NCBI GenBank assembly: GCA_024280855.1
Contig: JAJRPG010000098.1
Location: forward strand, 1-51,879
Direction: 5' to 3'
DNA: 51,879 nucleotides
Source of the DNA: Planctomycetota bacterium
GTDB taxonomy: Bacteria; Planctomycetota; Phycisphaerae; UBA1845
Shown here: one piece after another, positions 2,458 to 20,009 of the stretch
Position numbering within the stretch: position 1 is the stretch's first letter
Layout of the letters: every line of letters starts with the position of its first letter
Translations under genes and position numbers: made by a program
The notes under the pieces: generated by a model
Databases searched by the model: none
What the model was told of the DNA's origin: nothing
The model's input: the letters and a program-made list of their open reading frames with translations, nothing else

Positions 2458-4071
2458 CTATGGTGAAGGTAACGGCGTTGGTGTATTCACACCCCCGCGT
2501 TCTAACACAAGCGACTCCATAGCACCAGCAGAGAATCCGCCTTCCTCTGTTGGGTTAAAAATTTCTACATCGGTCACAGTATGACACGCTCGACAACTCA
2601 AGCCCTGGGTCAGCAGCGCGTTCGCACCTGCGTGGCTTTGGTGAATGGCTTCGCCCGTTGCCGGATCGATGTATTCCAAATCGACATTGTCGCCGTTGAG
2701 GAATTCGTAACTGGTGATTCCTGGCAAGAAGGCGTCCATATTGGTCACTGGGAACGTCGCGGTGTCCGAGAAGTCCGGAAGCGTGCCGCTGCCACTGCCT
2801 GCCGTCTTAATGGCTTGGATATCAGCATCACCACCATTGAGCGATAAGGTGTAAGCGAATGATACATAGTGATCACGCACGGTGACCATACCTTTATGGA
2901 TAGCAAAGGCAAGGTTGTAAACTTGGCCATCTGCCAACGCGGTGTCATCGTCGTTCCCGGTATCCAAGGCTCGCTGAATGTTTGAATCCCATTGGCCTAC
3001 GAGTGGATCTGCTGCTGAAGCTGTAAATGTCGTACCCGTTGCGGATATGTCTCCTCGACTACCTTCCGTTTGACGAAGTCTACGACGAGGAACCGTATCA
3101 CCTTCACTTGGGACATAGCCCATAGCAATAGCGTCAGCGTAATCAATGCCGACAGGATTCGGAGCATTTATTCCTAGGTTTTCAGCCGTTCCGTCCGTAA
3201 AGAATCGTAGTGGACTGGTGAAAAGGTCTTCAAAATTAAAAGCGAACAAACCACCAGCAGTACCTGGGTCAAATGCCCACTGCGGATTGCCATCATCATC
3301 GGTTGAAGCTGTGGCATATGGGCCTGTACCAGCATCACCATGACGAGAACCACCGCCGCCATCACCTTCGTCGCCTGTTCGCTGGCCTACCCATTGATCG
3401 TCAGACAAGCCTATGGGGTTCGCTCGACCGAGGCGATGATGCCAGAGGTCAAGGCGTCCAGAAACGTCATCTGGAAGATATTTGTGAACTTCTCCATCCT
3501 CTTCGAGCCACATGGGCATCGCCCGACTGTTATCATGGCAGGTCATCATGCAACCATACTGGGCAAAGCCTTCGACAGCGTTTGGACCTGTGGGGTCGTC
3601 TAGCATGAAGGTGACCCGTGATTCGTAAATGGTCGAATTGATGCTCGTAGAACCTCTCGCGGTGTCATTGTCTATAGTGGCTTGGGCATCGCGTCGCACG
3701 CCACCTTCACGCTGCCATGCGCCGTCGGTGTAGCGGAAATAATCATGCGTATCACCCCGATCACCTTCCCAACTCATATGGAAAAACATGGTGTCGTCAT
3801 TGTAAGCGGCTTGTACCGTGAACGGTAAGGTGATGGCTTTGTTTGCGTCTAAGCCTTGTAAGGTTGGTGCGTTGCTTGCGCTGCCATCGGATACACAAAC
3901 GCCATCGACGCAGGTCTCGCCATCCGCACAGGTTACGTCGGCACAGGCATCAACCGGGGGTGGCACTGTGGTCCCTGGGCAGCCTACCATAAAAAGTGTC
4001 ATGGCCAGTAAAGGGAGTGTCATCCCAATGGCCAAGAGCGGTTTCCAGATTTGTGATTGTTTTTTTGACAT
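2458..4071 (-). CDS. Lipoprotein, ethylbenzene-dehydrogenase-type heme-binding domain with two heme c motifs
   Basis: 537-residue predicted lipoprotein. The signal sequence ends in a lipobox (FMVGC, Cys31), and an AGGAGAG ribosome-binding site precedes the ATG. A short Cys-rich knot follows (about residues 38-60, four Cys). The next about 330 residues resemble the beta-sandwich heme-binding domain of the ethylbenzene dehydrogenase gamma-subunit family (a 'FTVQAAYNDDTMFFHMSWEG' strand pattern); this is by recall, not a search. Inside it is CMMTCH (174-179), a C-x3-C-H variant of the heme c motif, and near the C-terminus is a normal CRACH (493-497). It probably binds two hemes on the outer face of the inner membrane or on the outer membrane. 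It sits directly downstream of the barrel/multiheme operon, in the same direction but separated by about 250 bases, so it may have its own promoter. Confidence 0.75.
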   Translation of the reverse strand: MSKKQSQIWKPLLAIGMTLPLLAMTLFMVGCPGTTVPPPVDACADVTCADGETCVDGVCVSDGSASNAPTLQGLDANKAITLPFTVQAAYNDDTMFFHMSWEGDRGDTHDYFRYTDGAWQREGGVRRDAQATIDNDTARGSTSINSTIYESRVTFMLDDPTGPNAVEGFAQYGCMMTCHDNSRAMPMWLEEDGEVHKYLPDDVSGRLDLWHHRLGRANPIGLSDDQWVGQRTGDEGDGGGGSRHGDAGTGPYATASTDDDGNPQWAFDPGTAGGLFAFNFEDLFTSPLRFFTDGTAENLGINAPNPVGIDYADAIAMGYVPSEGDTVPRRRLRQTEGSRGDISATGTTFTASAADPLVGQWDSNIQRALDTGNDDDTALADGQVYNLAFAIHKGMVTVRDHYVSFAYTLSLNGGDADIQAIKTAGSGSGTLPDFSDTATFPVTNMDAFLPGITSYEFLNGDNVDLEYIDPATGEAIHQSHAGANALLTQGLSCRACHTVTDVEIFNPTEEGGFSAGAMESLVLERGGVNTPTPLPSP

Positions 4072-4322: not shown

Positions 4323-5378
4323 TTATCGCAAATTGCCAATAGCGTAGAGACTTATTCGATGTGAACCTAGTGTATTTGAAACAAAGAGGTAGTATTGTGC
4401 GTCGAATTCTTGGGGGACTAATGCACGGATGGCAGGCGGGAGGTCTGGGGCGATGGCTAGGCCTGTTGGCATGGGGGTATCGCCCGGTTGATTTTCCGGG
4501 CCTCCAAGCAGCATGAGTAATTGGCCATCGTTATCGTACATGTGAACGCGAGCGAATTCGGTATCTGCCACGAAGATGACACCGTCTGGGCCTATGGCGA
4601 GATGCCGAGGTCTACCCATGTCGCCGTAGCGATTGCCCAGGCTACCGATGGTGGTTAAAGGCATAAATTCCTTATTAAATCTTTGAACTTGGCCATTTAT
4701 TGAATCGGAAACTAAAAGCTGGCCATTGTTGGTAGCTTCAATGCCCATTGGAAAAAAGAATTGGCCCGAGTCGCGGCCTGGTTCGCCGAAACTGGTTTCT
4801 AATTTGCCTGACGTTGCATCAAAAACGAGGATGCGGTGCGTCGTGATGTCGGCGACGTACACTTTTCCTGCTTGAACAGTCAGGGCGACAGGTTTCATTG
4901 GCTCGTTGCTATTGGGTCTTAGTCGATGGGATACTTTGTGATCCGATTGGTTGAAAATGATGACCTCGCCTCGACCGGTATCTGCAATATAGACGTTGTT
5001 GTTATCATCAATAGCTACATCGACAGGAATTTCGAGGGTAACATATCCGCCGTCGCCGATTTTGGATGCGTAGCCTGTGGCGAGGTTCCAACTATGTACG
5101 CAACTTTGGGCAGTATCACAAATGTATAGACGTTGGTCGCGATAGGCGATCCCGGATGGGGCGGAGACGAAGGGGCTTGCTAATCCGCCGCGAATTTTTT
5201 CTACCCAGGATTGTTGGGGGGCGATTAAATCGTGAAGGTGGTTGAACGATTTTAGGTGGACCACATGAGGCGTAGCTGGTGGCGCGGGGAAGTAGACTGG
5301 CTTTGTTGTGTTGGATTGCGTGACGCAGCCAGTACACATGGCAAACAACAGGCCTACGATTATCAGCGTAGACTTCAT
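4323..5378 (-). CDS. NHL-repeat six-bladed propeller lipoprotein (operon gene 5)
   Basis: 351-residue predicted lipoprotein. The ATG at 5378 (MKSTLIIVG) gives a signal peptide with lipobox MCTGC and begins 2 bases after the upstream stop at 5381, so translational coupling is likely. The frame extends nine codons further upstream. The body has repeated NHL/beta-propeller strands ('GIAYRDQRLYICDTAQ', 'VDVAIDDNNNVYIADTG', 'GIEATNNGQLLVSDSINGQV', 'HLAIGPDGVIFVADTEF'), giving about five or six blades. NHL propellers are scaffolds that bind proteins or ligands; no catalytic residues are evident. It is last in the overlapping barrel/cytochrome operon and is related in design to the second gene (7755-8801), so the operon carries two propeller lipoproteins. 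The likely job is structural, holding or docking the cytochromes, but this is inferred only from context. Confidence 0.85.
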   Translation of the reverse strand: MKSTLIIVGLLFAMCTGCVTQSNTTKPVYFPAPPATPHVVHLKSFNHLHDLIAPQQSWVEKIRGGLASPFVSAPSGIAYRDQRLYICDTAQSCVHSWNLATGYASKIGDGGYVTLEIPVDVAIDDNNNVYIADTGRGEVIIFNQSDHKVSHRLRPNSNEPMKPVALTVQAGKVYVADITTHRILVFDATSGKLETSFGEPGRDSGQFFFPMGIEATNNGQLLVSDSINGQVQRFNKEFMPLTTIGSLGNRYGDMGRPRHLAIGPDGVIFVADTEFARVHMYDNDGQLLMLLGGPENQPGDTPMPTGLAIAPDLPPAIRALVPQEFDAQYYLFVSNTLGSHRISLYAIGNLR

Positions 5379-5380
5379 GA

Positions 5381-5965
5381 TTACTTTTTGTGGCATGTGA
5401 GGCACAGGGCGCTACGGGCATTGCTCTTTACGAGCATATACGGAGCGCCGGATTGGTTATGTGGGTCGTGACAGGAAGTACACTCGACTCTCCCGTTGGG
5501 CAATAAGACAGTTCCTTTGGATAGCACAGTTGTGACAGGATGAAACTGATCGCTAAATGCCGGGTAGATGACACCTACCGGATGGTCGCTTCGGCCATGC
5601 CCTGCGGTGAAAGTAGATGGATGTTTGGTGTGAACAAATCGCGTAGTCTTAACACCTGGAACAACAGGCTTTGCGATGGTGCCGTCGTGACATTGTAAGC
5701 AAATTCGTGTGCCATCGCCTGACCGGCTGACTCGTACGTCTTGGCCATTGAATCGTTTTTTCAGGTCTGCTTTGGGATTCCAGAGTGGTGCGTTTTTGGG
5801 GGTGTCTTCTCTGTTCGGGACGTGACAGGCGGCGCACATGTCGCCTCCCGAAAAGTCTTGACTAGAAAAATCATGTTTGGACCCTTCAAGCCCCGAAGAA
5901 GCAAGGCCTGTGATGGCAAAGCAAATCGCAGCGCTGACGACCAGGAGAACTTTCGCACCAATCAT
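5381..5965 (-). CDS. Tetraheme c-type cytochrome (operon gene 4)
   Basis: 194-residue exported cytochrome. I chose the start at 5965 (MIGAKVLLVV) because it forms an ATGA overlap with the upstream stop (5962-5964) and opens a clean signal peptide (hydrophobic run ending ITGLASSG). The open frame continues 36 codons further, inside the upstream gene. Four CXXCH motifs are present: CAACH, CLQCH, CTSCH and CLTCH, the last two residues from the C-terminus. Extra His residues (VHTKHPST, GRSDHPVG, DQFHP) can supply distal ligands. The layout fits the 'doubled CXXCH' family of small periplasmic electron carriers. It resembles the N-terminal part of the 12-heme protein next to it ('PLWNP', 'CLQCHDGT'), so the two may share ancestry by duplication. 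Confidence 0.88.
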   Translation of the reverse strand: MIGAKVLLVVSAAICFAITGLASSGLEGSKHDFSSQDFSGGDMCAACHVPNREDTPKNAPLWNPKADLKKRFNGQDVRVSRSGDGTRICLQCHDGTIAKPVVPGVKTTRFVHTKHPSTFTAGHGRSDHPVGVIYPAFSDQFHPVTTVLSKGTVLLPNGRVECTSCHDPHNQSGAPYMLVKSNARSALCLTCHKK

Positions 5966-7758
5966 CGTCGTCCTCCTCGATAAATTTTGCCAGATTTCAA
6001 AGCCGATTTTCTCGGCCCGGCATTCGAGTAAGGTATCGTTACATGGGTAAATCCGTGGCAGGTGAGCGTGCAATTGCCGGCGAGTCTTCCCGTGTCTTCG
6101 TAAGCAATGCGTCTACCGGCTGGGGTGTCAGCTGATTGCACGATCGACATATCGAAGTTTATCAAGCTGCCATGATTGACGCTATTGCCCTGCCCACGGT
6201 AGATGCCGTGCGCGTCGTGGCAGGCACTGCACGGCGTTCTTATGTCAACAATATGTCGGCGATGTCTGGAGAAACTTTCGTCACCAAGAATGCTGTCTCG
6301 ACTGTGACAGCCATAACAAAGGGCGTAGGCTTGGGCGCTTTCCGTGTTGAAATCGTCGGTGTCGTAATTTCTTACTAATAGCGGCTCAAAAATCGAACCG
6401 TGAGGCCCGTTTGGACCCGACCCGCCAAAGGCCCGGGCGGTGTCACTATTGTGGCAGTCGGTGCAAGTGATGACGCTGCCTACGCGCAGTGGCGATAGTA
6501 AACTCACCACATCAGTATTGCGCCGAGGGCCAGCTATGGGGTGAAAGGAGGGATTGGATGTTTGGAATTCGAGTCGCGTGTTCGTTTGGCTAACTTGCCG
6601 GGACGTGGTCAATCTTGGCCTAGCTACGCCGTCTGCGTGACATTTGAGGCACATCTCGTAGGTATAATTAATATGATTAATATCTCGCCCGCTGATAGTA
6701 ATGCCGGAAACGCGCAGATTAGGCCCTTTGACAAGCGAACCGAGTGTGCCGCGAACCAGGCCTATCGGGTTTGGGGCGGCTGCGTGTGGGTTATGGCAGT
6801 CGGCGCATTCGCTATGACGACGCATGGTCAGGGCATTTTCGACAGGGTCATGCACCCTAGTGCGCCTTGTAGGATCATGGCTTGAGCGTTTGCGAATTTC
6901 TGAGGCGATGTTGAAATTGGCAATAGTTCCGCTATGGCAGTTCAGACAGCCATCTTCTTCGCGGCGAAAGCGAAGCAATCGCTCACGTTCCGGGGCTGAA
7001 TGAATCTTGTGACAATTGATGCAGCCATTGTCTGCGACGGTGGCGTATTTGAGTCGCTCGACCGGATCAACCGTTCGTCCGGTGGTGCGTTTTCCGCTGG
7101 TGGCATGAGAAGCGTGCGACCAGCCCTTCATGTCATGGCAGGTGATGCACATGGTAGACATTTGGTCGGAAATACGCAGAAAATCGCCGCGTTCGTTATT
7201 GTGCGGATCATGACAAGTTGTGCAGTGCATTTCCTGGTGCGTGCCCAAGGGAAGTTTACTGCTGATGACTTCTGGTGGTCGAATCTGCGGATCGGCGTTT
7301 GATAGCGCGCGGTCGTAGCGAAAGCCGATGGGATGATCGTCGGAGAGATCGTTGCTCAGGTCGGCTGTGCCCGGTGGAATCGTTCGGGCGGTCATCATAA
7401 TCGGATGCGTTAAGGGGCGAGAGAGTACGTTGCCCAGAGCCATTGATCCGTCGTGACAACTTAGACACATCTTGGATGGCCCGGTTGGCTGATCGATACG
7501 GGCGTCGGTGGTGGAGCTACGATAGATGCGATAGTGCGTGCGCGGGTTTTCACGATTCCACAATGGTGTTTGCGGCGCTCCGTTATGCGGAGTGTGGCAG
7601 AAAATACAAATTTCGTTTTCGTAGATCGCACGGACCGGACCTGGCCCACGTGCGGATAAGTCGTGAACGGAGTTAACCACGGTTTCGTCGGCGCGTGATA
7701 GCACCGCTAACAAGCCGAACATGGTTAGGCTACATATTTTAATGCGGTGATGCCTCAT
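5962..7758 (-). CDS. Dodecaheme c-type cytochrome (operon gene 3)
   Basis: 598-residue exported cytochrome with eleven CXXCH motifs (CIFCH, CLSCH, CTTCH, CITCH, CINCH, CLNCH, CADCH, CLKCH, CTDCH, CYGCH, CSACH) and a final CTLTCH (563-568), a C-x3-C-H variant. The signal peptide runs to about residue 23 (MFGLLAVLSRA-DE). Motifs often occur as pairs with 'CHDPHN', 'CHKIHS' or 'CHDAHG' tails, typical of doubled-CXXCH electron-transfer proteins. The start overlaps the upstream stop as ATGA (7755-7758) and the stop overlaps the next start as ATGA (5962-5965), so it is tightly coupled to its neighbours. With the upstream barrel and propellers it is the likely wire of a trans-outer-membrane conduit. 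No enzymatic domain is recognised. A multiheme terminal reductase is an alternative. Confidence 0.9.
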   Translation of the reverse strand: MRHHRIKICSLTMFGLLAVLSRADETVVNSVHDLSARGPGPVRAIYENEICIFCHTPHNGAPQTPLWNRENPRTHYRIYRSSTTDARIDQPTGPSKMCLSCHDGSMALGNVLSRPLTHPIMMTARTIPPGTADLSNDLSDDHPIGFRYDRALSNADPQIRPPEVISSKLPLGTHQEMHCTTCHDPHNNERGDFLRISDQMSTMCITCHDMKGWSHASHATSGKRTTGRTVDPVERLKYATVADNGCINCHKIHSAPERERLLRFRREEDGCLNCHSGTIANFNIASEIRKRSSHDPTRRTRVHDPVENALTMRRHSECADCHNPHAAAPNPIGLVRGTLGSLVKGPNLRVSGITISGRDINHINYTYEMCLKCHADGVARPRLTTSRQVSQTNTRLEFQTSNPSFHPIAGPRRNTDVVSLLSPLRVGSVITCTDCHNSDTARAFGGSGPNGPHGSIFEPLLVRNYDTDDFNTESAQAYALCYGCHSRDSILGDESFSRHRRHIVDIRTPCSACHDAHGIYRGQGNSVNHGSLINFDMSIVQSADTPAGRRIAYEDTGRLAGNCTLTCHGFTHVTIPYSNAGPRKSALKSGKIYRGGRR

Positions 7759-8801
7759 GATTTAGCCTTTATATATTGAAAGACCTGAATGCGGCGGTTG
7801 CCAGCATCGGCGATCCATATGCGGTCCAGGTTATCTATGGCTATCCCTGCTGGCAAGATGAACTCGCCCACGCCGCCGCCCTCCTTACCCCAGGCTAATA
7901 ATAATTGGCCTTGATCGTTGAAAATTTGCACGTTTTCAAAGTGCGCGTCTACTACATAAATATGCCCGTCACTATCTACCGCGACACCCTTTGGTAAAGA
8001 AAGATCGCCTGCGCCGTCACCCTTTTGCCCGATGACCTGATGACAATGCCCTTCTAAATCGAGTAGCTGCACACGAAAATTTCCGCTATCCGCGAGCAAA
8101 AGTCTGTCGCCTGTGGAAGTGATATGCGAAGGATAATTGAACTCGCCCGGCGCAGTGCCTCGCTTGCCGATGTATTTTTCCAATTGGCCTTGGGTGGTGA
8201 AGACGGCTATTCGATGGGCATTTCCATCTACAACATAAATGCGCTGACTCGACGGGGAAAAGGTGACGCCTACGGGACGTTGTAAATCTTCTGTACCGAA
8301 ACGATTTTGCAAATTGCCCAAGGTGTCTAATTCGATGACTTCATGTCGCCCGGCGTCAGTGATGAACAGTCGTTCATTTATCCAGGCTACGCCGACTGGT
8401 GCAGCAAATCTTTCGTCACCCCACCCAGCTACGATGCGATGCGAGCGGGTGTTGATATTGATCAGATGGACCGCAGCTGCGGAAACGTCTGCTACGGCAA
8501 GCCAGCCATTTGGACCGATGGCTAATCCGTGTGGGCTGGACAATCGAATGGGTGGTCTTGGCCCGCGTAAGCCTGCTTTGAAAACTTCCCAACCTGTTTG
8601 TGCCGCATGCAAATCGTCGCTGTCAGCCAGGGCTCCGAGGTATTGGATGCGCGATTGTTGCGGGGGGGCGGGCCAAGTCTTCGGCGATTCGATAGCAGGG
8701 AAAACAATGCCAGCTGGGCGTGCGCATCCGGTGGCTAATGTGCCAAGCATAAGGCACCACAGCATCGATGTTTTCGTGAGTTGTTTAGCGTAGCAAGGCA
8801 T
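7755..8801 (-). CDS. NHL-repeat six-bladed propeller lipoprotein (operon gene 2)
   Basis: 348-residue predicted lipoprotein starting at 8801 (MPCYAKQLTK). A GAGAG site lies just upstream, and a lipobox LATGC follows the hydrophobic stretch. A shorter start at 8765 (MLWCLMLG) is possible. The start overlaps the barrel gene by 17 bases. NHL blades are clear: 'GLAIGPNGWLAVADVS', 'GVAWINERLFITDAGRHEV', 'GVTFSPSSQRIYVVDGNAH', 'HITSTGDRLLLADSGNFRV', 'GVAVDSDGHIYVVDAHFENV' and 'GIAIDNLDRIWIADAGNRRI', i.e. six blades closing a propeller. Blade 6 ends close to the C-terminus. Function is unknown. The conserved pairing of NHL propellers with multiheme cytochromes suggests assembly or docking in the envelope. 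Confidence 0.88.
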   Translation of the reverse strand: MPCYAKQLTKTSMLWCLMLGTLATGCARPAGIVFPAIESPKTWPAPPQQSRIQYLGALADSDDLHAAQTGWEVFKAGLRGPRPPIRLSSPHGLAIGPNGWLAVADVSAAAVHLININTRSHRIVAGWGDERFAAPVGVAWINERLFITDAGRHEVIELDTLGNLQNRFGTEDLQRPVGVTFSPSSQRIYVVDGNAHRIAVFTTQGQLEKYIGKRGTAPGEFNYPSHITSTGDRLLLADSGNFRVQLLDLEGHCHQVIGQKGDGAGDLSLPKGVAVDSDGHIYVVDAHFENVQIFNDQGQLLLAWGKEGGGVGEFILPAGIAIDNLDRIWIADAGNRRIQVFQYIKAKS

Positions 8802-10839
8802 CTGGAAACTCTCTTCGCACTCTGAAAAACACACCGTAATCATCTTCTTCTGATTCAGGCAGGCCCAGGCGGTCGTACTCCAAAACAAGCTCGCCGGACA
8901 ATTGGCCAATCTCAAAATCAATGCCGGCTGAGACATCCCAAGCCTGGGTAATGCCTCTGCTGGAATCCCTTTCGTAACGATAGCTAAGCCGCTCCACGAT
9001 GGAAACGGTATCGCTCATCCGTAGGTGATGATCGAGCTGAACATCGACCAGGGTGACGTTGCGATTATCGAAGCCGCCTTCAAATAATAGCCTGGAGATT
9101 CGCGTTGATAGATCGATGGTGCGGGCGGATGATTGCAACATGTGGTACAGGCCATTAACGTGAAAAGCGTCGTAAGGCTCGATCGTATCGTCGAAGATTT
9201 CGTACTCGACGTCCCAGGAATACTTCTTTTTTTCGTACCTGACGCCCAGACGATGATGATTGGTTCTATCGGCGCGACGGGCAAAACCGAACGAGACCTC
9301 ATCCTCCTGGTTACGGTAAGAAAGTCGATAGTACGGCGTAAAGCCGTTGGCGAACTTTTGTTCTATGCTGAAATCCACGCGGACCGTATCGAGTTTCCCG
9401 TTTGCTGGCGTGCGAAACAGATAATCAACCCATACCGTGTCACCATCTGCAATGATGCCAGTCCGAACGCGGGAAATGCGTGTGACGTTTCCCTGTCGAA
9501 AAACGATATAGTCAACACCGGCTAAATATATTCGGCGGTTGCCCGTGTCGGTGACAACCACGCTAGCTAGGTCTACATTACGATTGCCCAGGGTGATGGG
9601 GATAGGGTCGCGGAAGGTCGCGGATTCGTCGAGTACTAATCTACGGCCTTCGTCGCTATCTACTTTTTCTGTGTCATAAGCGAGGGCGAGATTGGCCCGC
9701 AGTTGGCCAAAGCGATTGTTTCGGTTGTATTGCCAGTCTATCGAAGCGCCGTATTGTGTCGTGTTGATGTCATTTTCGACGTCTTCATAAAGCGAGAAAG
9801 CATCAAAAGTCGTGGTGAGATTACTGTATGCCTGATGCACGGCTTGGAAGTCTACGCGCTGCGTCTCCACGTCCAGCCCGGCGTATCGTTCCCGATTGAA
9901 TTGGTATTTATAACTCGTTTGAAAATTGTCGGAATGCGAAAGCGTTAGTTGCGGGCCGATCTCAAAAATGTCTCTTGCGAAGTCGCCACTTTCCTCTTGC
10001 CATCTGAACCGAGTGCGCAGCGTATGCTGAAACTGTTGGCCAAAGGCAATTTCGTCGTCCACGATGAGCAAATCTCGCGTCGTCTCAAACCGCAGATTGG
10101 TTCCTTGAAACCGCTGCTGGTTTTCTGAATGGTCATAAGAAAGCTTTAATATGCGGTGTTCGTCGAGGTTCCAATCCAGGTTGTAATGCAACGTGCTATC
10201 GGTGAATTCCTCGTCATCGCGGCGGTTACGATTGCCGCGGCGGTCGGTGCGGGTGAAATCGTAAGTTAATTCCATCGGTATGATATCGTGTGCGTAGACC
10301 CAACTGGTTCCGAAACTGGTACGTCTTTCGGTTAAGGTCGGCTGAAATCGACGATTGATACGATTGTCGCGGCGCAAGCCATAGATTGATCCTGAAAATG
10401 CGCTGCCGGGGAAAATATTTACTCTGGCGTCATATTCGAGCAGATAGCCTCGGTCGGTTTCGGATTGGTGGTCGAAATTCGTACTTTCCTGAAAATGATC
10501 CTGGGCTAAGCCAAAATTCAGGTCGGCGCGGTAGGTCAAAAATTTGGCGTCGATTAGTGTGCCGCCGAGCGTTAAGCCAAATTTTTCCTCGAAACGCCAT
10601 TCGCGATTGGTCTGCTTTCGCTTGAAAGGGAAGCGCTGGCTACGAGACTGGATGTCGGTGTAGGCTAACTGGGATTCTAGCTCGAGATAGATGTCGCCAT
10701 AATCGAGGGTGAGTAGGCCCCTGGTTTCTTGATGTTTAGCCTTATCTTCTTCGGCTATAGCCATGGTAATAGTCCCCGCTAGTACGCATACTGCGGAGAC
10801 TAACAGGGGGGTGACTCGTGTGATGGGTACGCCGTTCAT
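8785..10839 (-). CDS. Outer-membrane beta-barrel, putative porin of a cytochrome conduit (operon gene 1)
   Basis: 684 residues with a signal peptide (hydrophobic residues about 10-28, then AEEDK). The rest is a long series of alternating amphipathic strands rich in aromatic, Arg, Asp and Asn residues ('TLHYNLDWNLDEHRILKLSY', 'FTPYYRLSYRNQEDEVSFGF', 'HHRLGVRYEKKKYSWDVEYE'), as expected of a large barrel. Residues about 428-474 form a small module (VVVTD, then GVDYIVFRQGNVTRI, then DGDTVWVDY) that I recall from other large barrel and surface proteins. It has no CXXCH. It lacks the N-terminal CXXC of MtrB, and the last residue is Arg rather than an aromatic, so I do not assign it to MtrB/PioB. 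It is the first gene of a five-gene operon with two NHL propellers and two multiheme cytochromes, which supports a porin-cytochrome role by context. Confidence 0.72.
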   Translation of the reverse strand: MNGVPITRVTPLLVSAVCVLAGTITMAIAEEDKAKHQETRGLLTLDYGDIYLELESQLAYTDIQSRSQRFPFKRKQTNREWRFEEKFGLTLGGTLIDAKFLTYRADLNFGLAQDHFQESTNFDHQSETDRGYLLEYDARVNIFPGSAFSGSIYGLRRDNRINRRFQPTLTERRTSFGTSWVYAHDIIPMELTYDFTRTDRRGNRNRRDDEEFTDSTLHYNLDWNLDEHRILKLSYDHSENQQRFQGTNLRFETTRDLLIVDDEIAFGQQFQHTLRTRFRWQEESGDFARDIFEIGPQLTLSHSDNFQTSYKYQFNRERYAGLDVETQRVDFQAVHQAYSNLTTTFDAFSLYEDVENDINTTQYGASIDWQYNRNNRFGQLRANLALAYDTEKVDSDEGRRLVLDESATFRDPIPITLGNRNVDLASVVVTDTGNRRIYLAGVDYIVFRQGNVTRISRVRTGIIADGDTVWVDYLFRTPANGKLDTVRVDFSIEQKFANGFTPYYRLSYRNQEDEVSFGFARRADRTNHHRLGVRYEKKKYSWDVEYEIFDDTIEPYDAFHVNGLYHMLQSSARTIDLSTRISRLLFEGGFDNRNVTLVDVQLDHHLRMSDTVSIVERLSYRYERDSSRGITQAWDVSAGIDFEIGQLSGELVLEYDRLGLPESEEDDYGVFFRVRREFPDALLR

Positions 10840-11003
10840 CGCACGTCTTTCTTAACTTCCACATGACAACTTCATTCAACTTAATGTTCTATAGACGATT
10901 AGGCCAAAAGTGGCAAGATAGTCTATTGAAAATTGCACCGTAAATGGGTAATGTGTTCTTGGCGTGAAGGGCACGCCACGGCAAATAGAAAATGATATGG
11001 ACT
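10840..11003. promoter_or_regulatory. Divergent intergenic region between conduit operon and 5-heme lipoprotein
   Basis: About 160 bases separate the start of the minus-strand barrel operon (10839) from the start of the plus-strand 5-heme gene (about 11004). Both promoters must lie here or inside the genes. No confident -35/-10 pair or operator palindrome is visible. The arrangement would allow co-regulation of the two transcripts. Confidence 0.4.
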
Positions 11004-11561
11004 ATGCGCAAGGTTAGATGGACCATCGTTGTGGGTGCATTGGTTTTGTGGGGCTGTTCAACAAGCACCCGCGATAAGTTTTCGCATTGGTTTTTTGAAA
11101 TTCCTGATGAGTCCGCGCCAGTTGCGGTCTCTGATGATGGCCTACCTGCGGCGATGCCTGCCAAAGGACTAGCTGTGGTGATTAATCACTATACCTCTAC
11201 CCATCCGCCATACCTTAAACATCAATGTCTGGTTTGCCATTCTCAGGAAAACCAAATGCAGCCGCGTGAAGACGAAGCCTTGCTAAATGTCTGCCGTGAT
11301 TGTCATACGAAGTATTTTACGGAAAAGGTTGGCCATGCGCCAGTGGCCCAGGGCGAATGTATCACTTGTCACGACATGCACCGTAGCATGCAGCCCGCGT
11401 TGCTAAAACTCACGGTCTTTGAAACGTGTATTGAATGTCACGATGAGCCGGAAGATTTGAGCGAAGAGGCTCACGGCGGCGACAACATCGAAAATTGCAC
11501 CCGCTGCCATGATCCTCATTTTGGTGAGGGCGTGCTGCTGCGAAAACGACTTACAGGCTAA
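11004..11561 (+). CDS. Pentaheme lipoprotein cytochrome
   Basis: About 185-residue predicted lipoprotein cytochrome. It starts at 11004 (MRKVRW) or 10992; neither has a strong ribosome-binding site. The hydrophobic run ends in the lipobox LVLWGC. Five CXXCH motifs follow after about 65 residues: CLVCH, CRDCH, CITCH, CIECH and CTRCH, with paired 'CHDMHR' and 'CHDPHFGEG' ends typical of doubled-CXXCH proteins. The segment between lipobox and hemes is Pro/Ala-rich and could tether the heme domain away from a membrane. It is divergent from the conduit operon and followed by a monoheme lipoprotein 46 bases downstream. Probably an inner- or outer-membrane-anchored periplasmic electron shuttle; partner unknown. 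Confidence 0.85.
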
Positions 11562-16463: not shown

Positions 16464-17639
16464 CTAATGTGCTGGCGGTTCGGCATCCGCAGTGTCATCA
16501 AGCGGCACTGGCCAGCCTTTCAGCGTTATATGATATCGCTGGCCAAAGAATGTCTGCTCGGTCTCGGATATATGTCCGAGATAGCCAAGGAACATAGCGC
16601 CAAGTAAACCGAATAGGCCTAGTCCTACCGCGATGGGGCGTTTCCTGGGATGCCTCTCCTTGCCACGGTCGAGAAATGGCCAAAGTAGCAAAAGGACGAA
16701 TGGAACCGAACAGCCAATGATGCCCATCAATGCGCCGTATGGCCCTTCGAAGTATTTCAATAGTTGATAAGACGGTAGGAAATACCACTCTGGCTTAATG
16801 TGTGGCGGAGTTTGAAGCGCGTTCGCAGGTTCGCCGATTTCCCACGGTGACACCACGGACAATGTCACCAAAACCGCAAGCATCATCATCACGACGACAC
16901 CTTCCTTGGCGACATGTACTGGGAAAAATGGTATGCCATGTTCGGGCTTTAATGGCGCCTCCTCACCCACGCGTTCTAATGTAGCTAAATTGCTTAGTCG
17001 CATCAGAAACAAATGAACCGCTATGACACCGGTGAGCGCCCAAGGAAGCAAAATAACGTGAACGACAAAAAACCGTGATAGTGTTTCACCTGTGACGGCA
17101 TCGCCTCCACGAAGAAAATATTGCAACCAATCACCAATCACAGGCACCTTGCTCGCGGACTCCGTACCGACCGTGGTTGCCCAAAACGCAATCTGGTTCC
17201 ACGGTAACAAATAGCCTGTAAAGCCAAATGTGATAGTCAGGATAAAGAGAATGACCCCTGTCACCCAGGTAAGCTCTCTTGGTTTTTTATAGGCTCCCAT
17301 GAAAAAGGTGCGGATCATGTGCAGGATAACTGCGAAGATCATCATCGACGCACCCCACGCGTGAATCTGCCGATATAGCCAACCAAACTGAACCTCTGCG
17401 GTGATGTATTGAATGGATTTATGCGCAGCCTCGGGAGTGGGCCTATAGTAAATGAGCAGCATAATGCCGGTAATGGTTTGACTGATAAACAGTAGCAGCG
17501 ACAAACTACCTAATACGTGCAGCCAACCGGTGTGCGGCGGCAGGCGTTTGAATGCTTGTTTGGAGATAAGTTCTCCGGCTAACTTAGTATCGTACCGATC
17601 GTCGAAGAATTGTTTGACCGTATTAACCAAACCCATCAT
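16464..17639 (-). CDS. Cytochrome b of a Rieske/cytochrome b complex
   Basis: 391-residue polytopic membrane protein that forms the quinol-oxidising core. The two heme b ligand pairs are visible: IHAWGASMMIFAVILH (H-x13-H) and HVILLPWALTGVIAVH (H-x14-H). The x14 spacing in the second pair is the one known for cytochrome b6 rather than bc1. The Qo-site motif PEWY is present (KPEWYFLPSYQLLKY), as is the cd helix ('WATTVGTESASKVPVIG'). N-terminal (b6-like) and C-terminal (subunit IV-like) halves are fused in one chain. No Cys is present near the first helix for a covalent heme c(i). It is third in an operon after the nine-heme cytochrome and the Rieske protein, with a 71-base gap from the latter. 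Confidence 0.95.
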   Translation of the reverse strand: MMGLVNTVKQFFDDRYDTKLAGELISKQAFKRLPPHTGWLHVLGSLSLLLFISQTITGIMLLIYYRPTPEAAHKSIQYITAEVQFGWLYRQIHAWGASMMIFAVILHMIRTFFMGAYKKPRELTWVTGVILFILTITFGFTGYLLPWNQIAFWATTVGTESASKVPVIGDWLQYFLRGGDAVTGETLSRFFVVHVILLPWALTGVIAVHLFLMRLSNLATLERVGEEAPLKPEHGIPFFPVHVAKEGVVVMMMLAVLVTLSVVSPWEIGEPANALQTPPHIKPEWYFLPSYQLLKYFEGPYGALMGIIGCSVPFVLLLLWPFLDRGKERHPRKRPIAVGLGLFGLLGAMFLGYLGHISETEQTFFGQRYHITLKGWPVPLDDTADAEPPAH

Positions 17640-17710
17640 ATATTCACTTTTCTACGAATCAGCCAATATCCCTACTACACACAGTCCGCTCATCTAAATA
17701 AACGCAGCAT

Positions 17711-18154
17711 TCAAGCAGCAGACACGAACACTTTGTCGCCGATTTCCTTAACCACAAATTCGGGAAGCGGGGCAGGCGGAGGCCCGGATACAACTTTACC
17801 ATTTTCATCGAAGACAGCTGCATGACACGGACACAGGAATGACTTGGTGGGCGAATCCCATGTAACCAGACATCCTAAATGCGTGCAAACCGCTGAATAA
17901 GCTTTGAACCCACTACGATGGCGAACCACGACCACGGCTTGGCTTCCTACTTGAATGGTCTTACCTTGACCGGGCGTCATCTGGTCTGCACCTTCGACCT
18001 CGACTTTTGCGGGGCCCCCGCCTTTGGCAGCGGGCCAAAGGTACATCAAGCCGGGGATGCTCACCGCAGCCGTCGTGAGTAGTGAACCTACGGCTAAGAT
18101 CAAATCAAGAAAGCTGCGTCTTGTAGGTGGTTTGTTCATTTGACCTGACATCAT
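17711..18154 (-). CDS. Rieske [2Fe-2S] protein
   Basis: 147 residues. A twin-arginine-like signal anchor (TRRSFLDLILAVGSLLTT) is followed by a Gly-rich hinge and a Rieske domain with both cluster loops: CTHLGC and CPCH (two Cys and two His ligands, plus the disulfide Cys pair). The start may be 18154, preceded by a GAGG site, or the internal Met at 18139 (MNKPPTRRSF). The protein carries electrons from quinol at the cytochrome b Qo site to a cytochrome c, here presumably the nine-heme protein encoded 18 bases upstream. The close spacing supports one operon. Confidence 0.95.
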   Translation of the reverse strand: MMSGQMNKPPTRRSFLDLILAVGSLLTTAAVSIPGLMYLWPAAKGGGPAKVEVEGADQMTPGQGKTIQVGSQAVVVVRHRSGFKAYSAVCTHLGCLVTWDSPTKSFLCPCHAAVFDENGKVVSGPPPAPLPEFVVKEIGDKVFVSAA

Positions 18155-18172
18155 ACAACCTCAAAATAGTTC

Positions 18173-19585
18173 CTAATCAAGCGGCTTAACCCATTGCTTT
18201 TTGAGCTGTTTAAATTTCGCATAAATCGCAATCGAAAACAATATAGCTAAGACCCACATAGGGCCAAGAAGCTTATACCTCAGCGATAAGCCCGCCTCTA
18301 ACTCGTCAAGCTGATCGTTCACCTGGGCACATACTTCATTCAATGCGGCCACTTTTTCAGCCACTTTTTCGTTGTCCAAAGTATGCTGCGTAGGTGCTAG
18401 CGAGATCAGATGCGTCTTGGCATCCTCAAAAAGAAATCGCTGATTTTCCACGAGCAAAACACCCTGACCAACATGTTCTAATCGATTAGCTGTCTCTACA
18501 TATCGCAGTTCAGCGGCTGCGATCTCATCTAGTAGTTTGAACATCTTGGGCAGATTTTCATCGTCCTCCAAATCATCGTGACAATCCATACATGTCGCTA
18601 AGGCATGATTGATAATCTGCTTGGGACCGGGATGAATCGCATCTGCAACCTGCGCAGCTGTAGGATTAGACTGCGTTTTCAACAGATGGGCGTAACGCTG
18701 GATAAGAATGCCCGGCGGTTTCGAAATGCGATCAATATGGTGAAAGTGGCTATCTTCACCACCACCGTGACACTGCACGCAACCTTTATGTTCATCTTGC
18801 CCCGCGTGAATGCTAGTGGCAAACATGGCAGATTCGTGCTGATGACATTGGCCACAGACTGCGCCTATAGTTGAAAATCCTGGCGGCATAGCCGAGTGAT
18901 TACCGTGGCAGGTCGCACATGTAGGAGCGCCAGTATCACCCTCCTCGAATAATAACTTGCCATGAACGCTATCGCGGTATTCACTAACTATTTCTACAGG
19001 TAGTCCCGACTCAGCCATCAAATCTTTGTCGGCATGACAGGATGCACAAGTATCGGGTACATGCAGCGGATAAGTTTTACTCTCAGGATCACGACCAGTT
19101 CTAATATCGTGCGATCCATGACAATCGATACAAACCGCGACCTTTTCATTCCCGTTTACAAGCGCCTTACCGTGGCCACTGGTCAAATAGCGGGCGAGTT
19201 GATCTGTCCGCATGCCGTAGGGGTTCATCTTCGCTACGTCTGCATGGCACGTCCCGCAGCGACTGGGAACCTCTTTACGATTAGGCTTACCTAGAAAGCT
19301 TTGGCCATGATCGAATGTAAGCTGGCTATCGGCTGGGCGAGCAAGAAATTTGGCCAATTCACTTTTCGGTATCTCGAAACTAGATTCGCCACTATGGCAT
19401 TCCTGACAAGTCAAGCCGTGATGCACAGAAGTACCCAATTCGCTCCCCTGTGTGGTATGGCACGTTTGACATGAGACTTTGTTTTCCTGAGCGAATGAAG
19501 CGGTAGAAACGCAGCCTATGACGACCCGAGCTATAAAAACAACCATCAATCGTACATTTTCGATTTTCTTAATTAATAGGCTCAT
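18173..19585 (-). CDS. Nine-heme membrane-anchored cytochrome c of the Rieske/b complex
   Basis: 470 residues from the ATG at 19585 (MSLLIKKIENV); the frame is open for 11 more codons. After a signal peptide cleaved near ASFAQ there are nine CXXCH motifs (CQTCH, CQECH, CGTCH, CIDCH, CASCH, CATCH, CGQCH, CVQCH, CMDCH) in residues about 39-336. A helical, probably coiled-coil stretch (350-430) and one C-terminal transmembrane segment follow (about 439-456, 'LLGPMWVLAILFSIAIYAKF') with a positively charged tail. It is first in an operon with Rieske and cytochrome b and is the likely electron acceptor in place of cytochrome c1 or f. Multiheme partners of bc-type complexes are known from anammox planctomycetes and others; the exact family here is not established. 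Confidence 0.9.
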   Translation of the reverse strand: MSLLIKKIENVRLMVVFIARVVIGCVSTASFAQENKVSCQTCHTTQGSELGTSVHHGLTCQECHSGESSFEIPKSELAKFLARPADSQLTFDHGQSFLGKPNRKEVPSRCGTCHADVAKMNPYGMRTDQLARYLTSGHGKALVNGNEKVAVCIDCHGSHDIRTGRDPESKTYPLHVPDTCASCHADKDLMAESGLPVEIVSEYRDSVHGKLLFEEGDTGAPTCATCHGNHSAMPPGFSTIGAVCGQCHQHESAMFATSIHAGQDEHKGCVQCHGGGEDSHFHHIDRISKPPGILIQRYAHLLKTQSNPTAAQVADAIHPGPKQIINHALATCMDCHDDLEDDENLPKMFKLLDEIAAAELRYVETANRLEHVGQGVLLVENQRFLFEDAKTHLISLAPTQHTLDNEKVAEKVAALNEVCAQVNDQLDELEAGLSLRYKLLGPMWVLAILFSIAIYAKFKQLKKQWVKPLD

Positions 19586-20009
19586 AGTAAATTGCTCACG
19601 ACAACAAACTGCTATCACTATATACCCGTATCGTCACACAGCCACAATAATGTCCGAGACAAATCCAACAATGACACGATACCGTTTTCTTTACTTCGTA
19701 CAACTCCTCAAGCGAAACCGATTGCCAAGCATATCCTAGCTCCCAAGCCTAGCCCCCGGGATTGCCCTACATGCTTGACCTAAGTCCTGCCCAAATTACA
19801 TTGCAATTTACGGGCCAGCTTTGACCTGTCTTTCTAAAATTCCAAAATTTTGGATGCCGATCAATACAGAAGGCTTTGGTGAAAAAAACAAACATCAGGT
19901 AAGCCGACCTTTCATATAACTACTGAATATTTCCTATCACAGCTGAAAGATGTAGCTGAAGCCCGAAATAGATCAATTTTACATCACATCAACATATGAA
20001 ATGAGTATA
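19586..20009. other. Intergenic region upstream of the bc operon
   Basis: About 420 bases with no supported gene between the minus-strand cytochrome operon and the terminator of the next minus-strand gene. It should contain the promoter of the Rieske/b operon. I could not pick out a convincing promoter, operator or RNA structure. Confidence 0.4.

Follow-up and report, generated by a model that had tools for sequence, protein, structure and literature searches.

Among described electron-carrying systems, those closest to the locus reported here are the outer-membrane conduits MtrAB, MtoAB and PioAB, in which a wide barrel is combined with a long multiheme wire, and the cytochrome nanowires built from OmcS or OmcE. 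In these nanowires, successive subunits are described as linked through a heme that belongs to one of them and takes a histidine of the next (PMC12954529, PMC9473688, PMC7096707); specifically, the fifth heme of OmcS is reported to receive its histidine from the adjacent monomer, and a membrane anchor is suggested as a possible attachment for the monomer at the end of the wire (PMC7096707). The anchoring of the nanowires to the cell and the entry of electrons into them are presented in this literature as unresolved (PMC12307469, PMC7096707). The gene set considered in this work lies in a stretch of 51,879 nucleotides from a Planctomycetota bacterium (assembly GCA_024280855.1, contig JAJRPG010000098.1), hereafter called the window, and encodes a barrel, two NHL propellers and two cytochromes with 12 and four hemes, named C12 and C4. 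We give an even chance to the reading that this set encodes a conduit for electrons across the outer membrane, coupled to a cytochrome wire of the OmcE type. C12 is a concrete and widely conserved candidate for the joint between nanowire and cell, and the gene set may provide the missing socket by which OmcE-type nanowires connect to the cell.

A preliminary description of this DNA had proposed a conduit of porin and cytochromes, possibly distinct in type from those known, with the propellers as putative scaffolds. A distinct porin-cytochrome conduit is still the leading reading, since C12 models like MtrA; what it overlooked is the kinship of both cytochromes with the nanowire protein OmcE, which changes the probable role of the gene set. 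The divergent gene LIPO5 and a second cluster in the same genome (locus L015) had also gone unremarked.

Gene set and cytochromes

The five genes are arranged on the minus strand in the order barrel, NHL1, C12, C4 and NHL2, with junctions of -17, -4, -4 and +2 bases, in agreement with the overlapping arrangement first reported. The other features read from the sequence at that stage hold as well: Pfam NHL scores far over its cut-off in both propellers, C12 carries 11 CxxCH motifs plus one CX3CH, C4 carries four motifs, and the barrel is devoid of CXXC, its one cysteine being located in the signal peptide. LIPO5, whose start lies 152 bases from that of the barrel gene in the opposite direction, belongs with the five-gene set. 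The genes and their relevant parts are the following:

10839-8785, minus strand: barrel gene, 684 residues, signal peptide at about residues 1-29
9400-9654, minus strand: insert domain of about 85 residues in the barrel, between strands 17 and 18 of the predicted secondary structure
8801-7755, minus strand: NHL1, propeller-type lipoprotein, lipobox LATGC (Pfam NHL, E 5.5e-32)
7758-5962, minus strand: C12, 12-heme cytochrome with an OmcE-like head and an MtrA-like wire
7132-7695, minus strand: OmcE-like four-heme head of C12, residues 22-209, from sequence and model matches to OmcE
6157-7485, minus strand: MtrA-like stretch of C12, model residues 71-513, heme motifs 2-11, from the range of the VIA alignment
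5965-5381, minus strand: C4, four-heme OmcE-like protein ending in CLTCHKK, matching 9yuq chain N and OmcE (7tfs)
5378-4323, minus strand: NHL2, propeller lipoprotein, lipobox MCTGC (Pfam NHL, E 1.3e-22)
10992-11561, plus strand: LIPO5, divergent five-heme lipoprotein, five CxxCH motifs and a lipobox

In 2000 shuffles of the C12 sequence, CxxCH occurred 0.058 times on average and at most twice. The CX3CH motif is invariant in six sequences (the window and five others) and its histidine is kept in 87 of 87 aligned rows, so that the count of 12 hemes in C12 is correct. When compared with solved structures by phmmer, residues 7-209 of C12 match OmcE (7tfs), the tetraheme nanowire cytochrome of Geobacter, with an E-value of 3.2e-28, and the protein also matches chain N of 9yuq, a structure in which a putative multiheme cytochrome makes up 16 chains (E 3.2e-24). 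A profile built from 50 C12 proteins, that of the window and 49 of 77 references, reaches OmcE at E 1.7e-47 and, over one 80-residue stretch, finds the chain of the Mtr complex that we take to be MtrA (6r2q chain A, E 3.9e-7). The structural model of C12 has a mean predicted local distance difference test (pLDDT) score of 84.4 and is weak near the first heme. In this model, residues 10-188 align with OmcE in VIA over 172 residues (Z 12.5, root-mean-square deviation (rmsd) 3.0; Foldseek E 1.5e-9), and residues 71-513 align with MtrA over 233 of 265 residues (Z 10.3, rmsd 3.9, 28% identity), the other multihemes compared with C12 reaching a Z of at most 5.4. The MtrA-like stretch spans ten of the twelve heme motifs, the same number as in MtrA, and this range would imply a heme-by-heme overlap of motifs 2-11 with those of MtrA. 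As model residues 71-188 fall in both structural matches, the model hints that the wires of OmcE and of MtrA share an ancestor.

The smaller cytochrome, C4, is OmcE-like across its whole chain, with four hemes of which the last is at the very C-terminus; it matches 9yuq chain N over its length (E 1.3e-14) and OmcE in two stretches (E 2.3e-10). In a tree, the C12 heads form one supported fork (98/95) together with one other row. This odd row, L020_8969, is labelled OmcE-like and overlaps the C12 frame of the same locus, and probably represents a piece of a C12 with a frameshift. A single split of C12 heads from OmcE-like proteins appears in just 34% of the bootstrap trees; one origin of the C12 heads is favoured on this sequence comparison.

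Barrel and conserved linkage

The barrel was modelled by AlphaFold2 from a 62-row alignment, composed of the window and 61 of 62 barrel references (L095 was dropped for length), with a mean pLDDT of 92.3 and a predicted template-modelling score of 0.84. Where the preliminary description had looked for at least 20 strands, the model has 28 long ones, 17 before the insert and 11 after it, and no N-terminal plug. By standard geometry, a barrel of 28 strands has a C-alpha diameter of about 49-56 Å, versus 45-52 Å for 26 strands, and the size of MtrA is quoted as 25 x 50 Å (PMC12806980); a barrel so modelled would be wide enough to sheath a multiheme wire. The VIA alignment with MtrB (6r2q chain B) runs from residue 21 to 649 and includes 433 residues, the highest number among the VIA matches listed (Z 16.4, rmsd 5.5), and the template-modelling score of MtrB, 0.43/0.44, is the top one among the 50 Foldseek matches listed. 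The best Foldseek E-values are those of TonB receptors, LptD and an usher, and no Pfam family, the TonB family included, matches the barrel. In other words, the protein is predicted to be a large outer-membrane barrel of about the size of MtrB, which it resembles in its model and not by a sequence match.

Strand counting would place the insert outside the cell, provided that the N-terminus lies in the periplasm. The pattern VVVxD...GxDY...G.I..G.TV.VDY is kept in this insert (9400-9654) across loci, and no domain of Pfam was recognised in it; a match to a phage tail-tube model of NCBIfam, at 19.5 bits against a cut-off of 60, was taken as chance.

The distribution of the set was followed by C12 alone, with a profile search of genome contigs whose query came from six C12 proteins found beside barrels, and the best 80 of 365 relatives were kept (loci L028-L107). 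These 80 loci, mostly from metagenome bins, span about ten phyla: their titles name Planctomycetota, Verrucomicrobiota, Bacteroidota, Ignavibacteria/Chlorobiota, Nitrospirota, Desulfobacterota with Geobacteraceae, Acidobacteriota, Anaeromyxobacter, alpha-, beta- and gammaproteobacteria, Calditrichota and Zixibacteriota. The co-occurrence of barrel and cytochromes that had been anticipated is conserved, the barrel being just upstream of C12 in 56 of the 66 loci with room for it, and elsewhere in 8 of the 80. Similarly, of the 75 loci with room for a propeller, 63 have one related to NHL1 that ends no more than 400 nucleotides upstream of C12. In 47 wide loci, the barrel was found in 43, NHL2 in 38, a four-heme gene in 43 (a count that takes in some four-heme proteins not recognised as OmcE-like), a LIPO-like gene in 21, and barrel, NHL2 and four-heme gene together in 36; in many loci, NHL2 relatives adjoin the OmcE-like gene. 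Furthermore, between-family distances covary in six pairs (r 0.38-0.67, with none of 2000 permutations as high), r being 0.61 for C12 and barrel and 0.62 for C12 and the OmcE-like protein.

Within the phylum of the window, the barrel is present in 9 of the 199 genomes searched, that of the window included, and C12 is in the same stretch as the barrel in all loci read from these genomes except L023, a contig of 7.4 kb. The fullest gene order in these loci is OmcE-like gene, NHL2, LIPO5, barrel, NHL1 and C12. In L015, L018, L019 and L020 a five-heme relative of LIPO5 stands directly upstream of the barrel, and in L017 a ten-heme one; L015 is the second such cluster in the window genome. Two loci of cultured bacteria, L087 of Carboxylicivirga marina and L066 of Desulforhopalus sp. 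IMCC35007, hold the barrel, NHL1, C12 and NHL2 along with OmcE-like and LIPO-like genes. Among the individual loci, the NHL1-C12 pair is tandemly duplicated in L078 (6209-11761), and the barrel of L063 (6774-8911) is split over two overlapping frames, by a frameshift or an assembly error.

Histidine ligands and proposed mechanism

The histidine that OmcS donates to its neighbour is His16, the second histidine of the first motif CEGCHTMH, whose position was located on the 6ef8 match. The like position in the OmcE chain is His58, and in the window it is occupied by the following residues:

7585-7587, minus strand: His58 of C12 (CIFCHTPH), presumed by analogy with OmcS to act as ligand for a heme of the adjacent subunit
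5813-5815, minus strand: Asn51 of C4 (CAACHVPN), at the presumed joining-histidine position in the alignment of 68 OmcE-like proteins

This joining position is kept as histidine in 82 of 86 C12 proteins and in 61 of the 68 aligned OmcE-like proteins, whose three other non-proximal histidines are present in 67, 68 and 68 of the 68. The seven OmcE-like proteins without it, which sit at three places of the tree, are the C4 of the window, its close relatives in L028, L029 and L031, and the second copies that occur in L046, L084 and L105. In the aligned C12 proteins, 12 proximal and 14 other histidines are conserved at 97% or more, two beyond the need of 12 hemes. We read these patterns as follows: C12 would donate a histidine outward and have its own open site filled internally, ordinary OmcE-like subunits would both donate and accept, and C4 would only accept. 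The conserved histidines thereby suggest that C12 marks the membrane-side end of an OmcE-type wire. As the joining histidine is lost in C4, this protein may be a cap rather than a polymer in the window; the second cluster has an OmcE-like protein of 226 residues with the joining histidine intact.

In the mechanism that we propose, C12 would sit in the barrel as MtrA does in MtrB and carry electrons across the outer membrane, with its N-terminal end formed like the terminal subunit in a wire of the OmcE type. His58 of C12 would complete the open heme at the end of a neighbouring OmcE-like subunit, and the open site of C12 itself would be filled from within, with His218 as the candidate ligand. 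In most clusters the partner retains the joining histidine and could polymerise from C12, while in the window, where C4 could only accept, the wire would stop at a single subunit; the role of the propellers and the five-heme lipoprotein would be to hold the junction or to feed it.

The side of the membrane on which the head lies can be approached by two analogies. OmcE wires are described as extracellular (PMC12954529, PMC12307469), so the head could face outward, and we lean slightly towards this placement outside the cell; the N-terminus of MtrA is described as periplasmic (PMC12806980), so the head could face inward, and we put a periplasmic location at somewhat less than an even chance. 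The most extended form of the proposal is that C12 splices an MtrA-type outer-membrane wire to a nanowire subunit and that OmcE-type wires grow from it via the shared heme ligand. If the orientation of MtrA were kept, this polymer would be a cable through the periplasm, from the inner to the outer membrane, and the variant of the window would be a stub of one subunit capped by C4. We consider this whole picture unlikely.

The surroundings of the cluster offer a possible electron supply. On the minus strand at 16464-19618 of the window, genes for a cytochrome b/b6, a Rieske protein and a nine-heme cytochrome stand in a row; together they would make up a quinol oxidase of the bc type that includes a multiheme subunit and might deliver quinol electrons to the periplasm for the conduit. 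Adjoining the cluster, at 2458-4071, is a lipoprotein-like gene with one CxxCH and a match to Pfam EB_dh (ethylbenzene-dehydrogenase-like, E 7.1e-28). A cytochrome-c assembly protein with ResB and Cytochrom_C_asm adjoins the second cluster, and the contig of that cluster encodes a protein of 1759 residues with 30 CxxCH motifs, similar to NHL proteins (L027, 859-6138). Near C12 in the 80 loci, a response-regulator-like family occurs in 22 and a sensor-like family, sometimes with CxxCH, in 21, which suggests dedicated regulation; the regulator of the second cluster is of the sigma-54 type.

Alternative explanations and known systems

A number of observations weigh against a conduit joined to a wire. 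For C12, MtrA is not among the 19 Foldseek matches, whereas OmcE is, and with the NCBIfam model TIGR03508 for DmsE-type decahemes, which also covers MtrA, the protein reaches 53.7 bits where 192.2 is the cut-off. The barrel has no match in NCBIfam to TIGR03509, the model of the MtrB family, and its profile matches no solved structure by sequence; by model, MtrB ranks eighth in VIA, with four TonB receptors at Z 17.4-18.5 and others level with it, and 47th by Foldseek E-value. As to the ligands, an extra histidine that is missing from OmcE occurs in 47 of 64 OmcE-like proteins and two further histidines of C12 are conserved at 90-91%, so that the ligand count is not airtight; the C12 model is of low confidence around His58 (blocks of mean pLDDT 51-55), and the OmcE heme that receives the neighbour's histidine is presumed from OmcS. 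Moreover, an orientation like that of MtrA would put the head of C12 away from the known extracellular OmcE wires, four of the 66 loci with room lack the barrel (L030, L033, L081 and L094), and common descent alone could give the covariation of distances.

One alternative is that the locus encodes a conduit of the MtrAB or Mto kind and nothing else, in which the OmcE-like head is a shared end piece without docking and C4 and LIPO5 are ordinary electron partners. The MtrA-like model of C12, the size of the barrel and a C4 devoid of the joining histidine agree with it, as does the reading of a Geoalkalibacter locus as Fe(II) oxidation in the description available (PMC12016550); yet an OmcE-like or other four-heme gene accompanies C12 in 43 of the 47 wide loci, and the joining histidine kept in 82 of 86 C12 proteins would be needless in an idle end piece. 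We regard this explanation as rather unlikely. Slightly less likely still, in our estimate, is a platform for nanowire export and assembly, with the barrel as a secretion pore for OmcE-like subunits, the propellers as assembly factors in the manner proposed for OscD, and C12 starting the filament without filling the pore. OmcE-like genes and NHL2 do adjoin, and the Geobacter osc operon is proposed to serve the folding, secretion and shaping of OmcS wires (PMC13194489), but C12 models like MtrA, which fills its barrel. In addition, profiles of the genes at the Osc E and G positions match none of 94 sources (the 80 loci, 13 other genome stretches and the first 20 kb of the window), that of F one and that of H three, so that no export module of this kind is generally linked to the loci.

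Very improbable is a TonB-receptor-like barrel for nutrient uptake that merely neighbours unrelated cytochromes: TonB receptors stand above or level with MtrB in VIA and have better Foldseek E-values, but the 28 long strands, the missing N-terminal plug and the missing Pfam TonB family speak against it, and so does the conserved linkage to C12 across about ten phyla.

The set resembles MtrAB, MtoAB and PioAB in that C12 models like MtrA and the barrel aligns with MtrB end to end. It differs from them by 12 hemes instead of ten, the OmcE-like head, the two linked propellers and the barrel without CXXC, and no MtrC-like gene was recognised beside it. With OmcE the set shares the relatedness of C4 and of the C12 head, and an NHL gene adjoins omcE in Geobacterales loci too, although C4 departs from OmcE in lacking the presumed joining histidine. 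Identity with the Geobacterales omcE cluster was rejected: seven such loci (L135-L141; proteins 44-64% identical to OmcE, with G. sulfurreducens not recognised among the genomes searched) carry eight-heme and mostly ten-heme genes and NHL genes, and neither barrel nor C12. In Geobacterales, the barrel-NHL1-C12 set is a separate locus (L142-L145).

The osc cluster of OmcS companions and OetABI of the partners of ANME likewise unite a barrel, propellers, multihemes and a filament cytochrome, as described for clusters of this type (PMC10553843, PMC5539420), but they differ in a filament protein of the OmcS and not the OmcE type, in 16- and 26-heme proteins and in a peptidyl-prolyl isomerase. The Geobacterales OmcS loci L150-L156 contain a protein of about 750 residues, smaller genes that encode about 200, 400 or 600 residues, and proteins with 26 and 15/16 hemes. 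We take the protein of about 750 residues to be the barrel, and the Osc position letters are our own placement; OscD is said by Shen et al. in 2025 to be propeller-like and OscEFG channel-like. Identity with Oet/osc was rejected on the E-to-H profile counts given above, and the profiles for positions H, F and G, peptidyl-prolyl isomerase included, find nothing in the first 20 kb of the window. Between the window-type and osc barrels, hhalign returns a weak match (probability 12.9, E 0.0022 over 190 columns) and HMMER none at E 1. Judged from their sequences by eye, the genes at the OscF and OscG positions of L150-L156 look like CsgG/GNA1162-type lipoproteins.

Other porin-cytochrome systems were set apart by description. 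PCC4, a porin with four-, five- and ten-heme cytochromes that is also reported from Planctomycetes, has a conserved inner-membrane protein and no propeller named in the description available (PMC5566968), and a five-helix protein is not among the families recurring in at least six C12 loci; the described content of PCC3 differs as well. The cytochromes adjacent to the verrucomicrobial porin are described with eight conserved heme sites, not 12 (PMC5615132). No account of a barrel with an OmcE-headed 12-heme protein was found in titles and abstract openings, and the main OmcE papers may hold one. The nearest is that of the Geoalkalibacter locus, in which homologues of MtoA and OmcE are described together with two NHL proteins and mtoB is said to be absent (PMC12016550); by this description the locus looks like a relative of the set in the window. 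The cluster of the window is distinct from osc/Oet, from the Geobacterales omcE cluster and from the conduits of the MtrB family.

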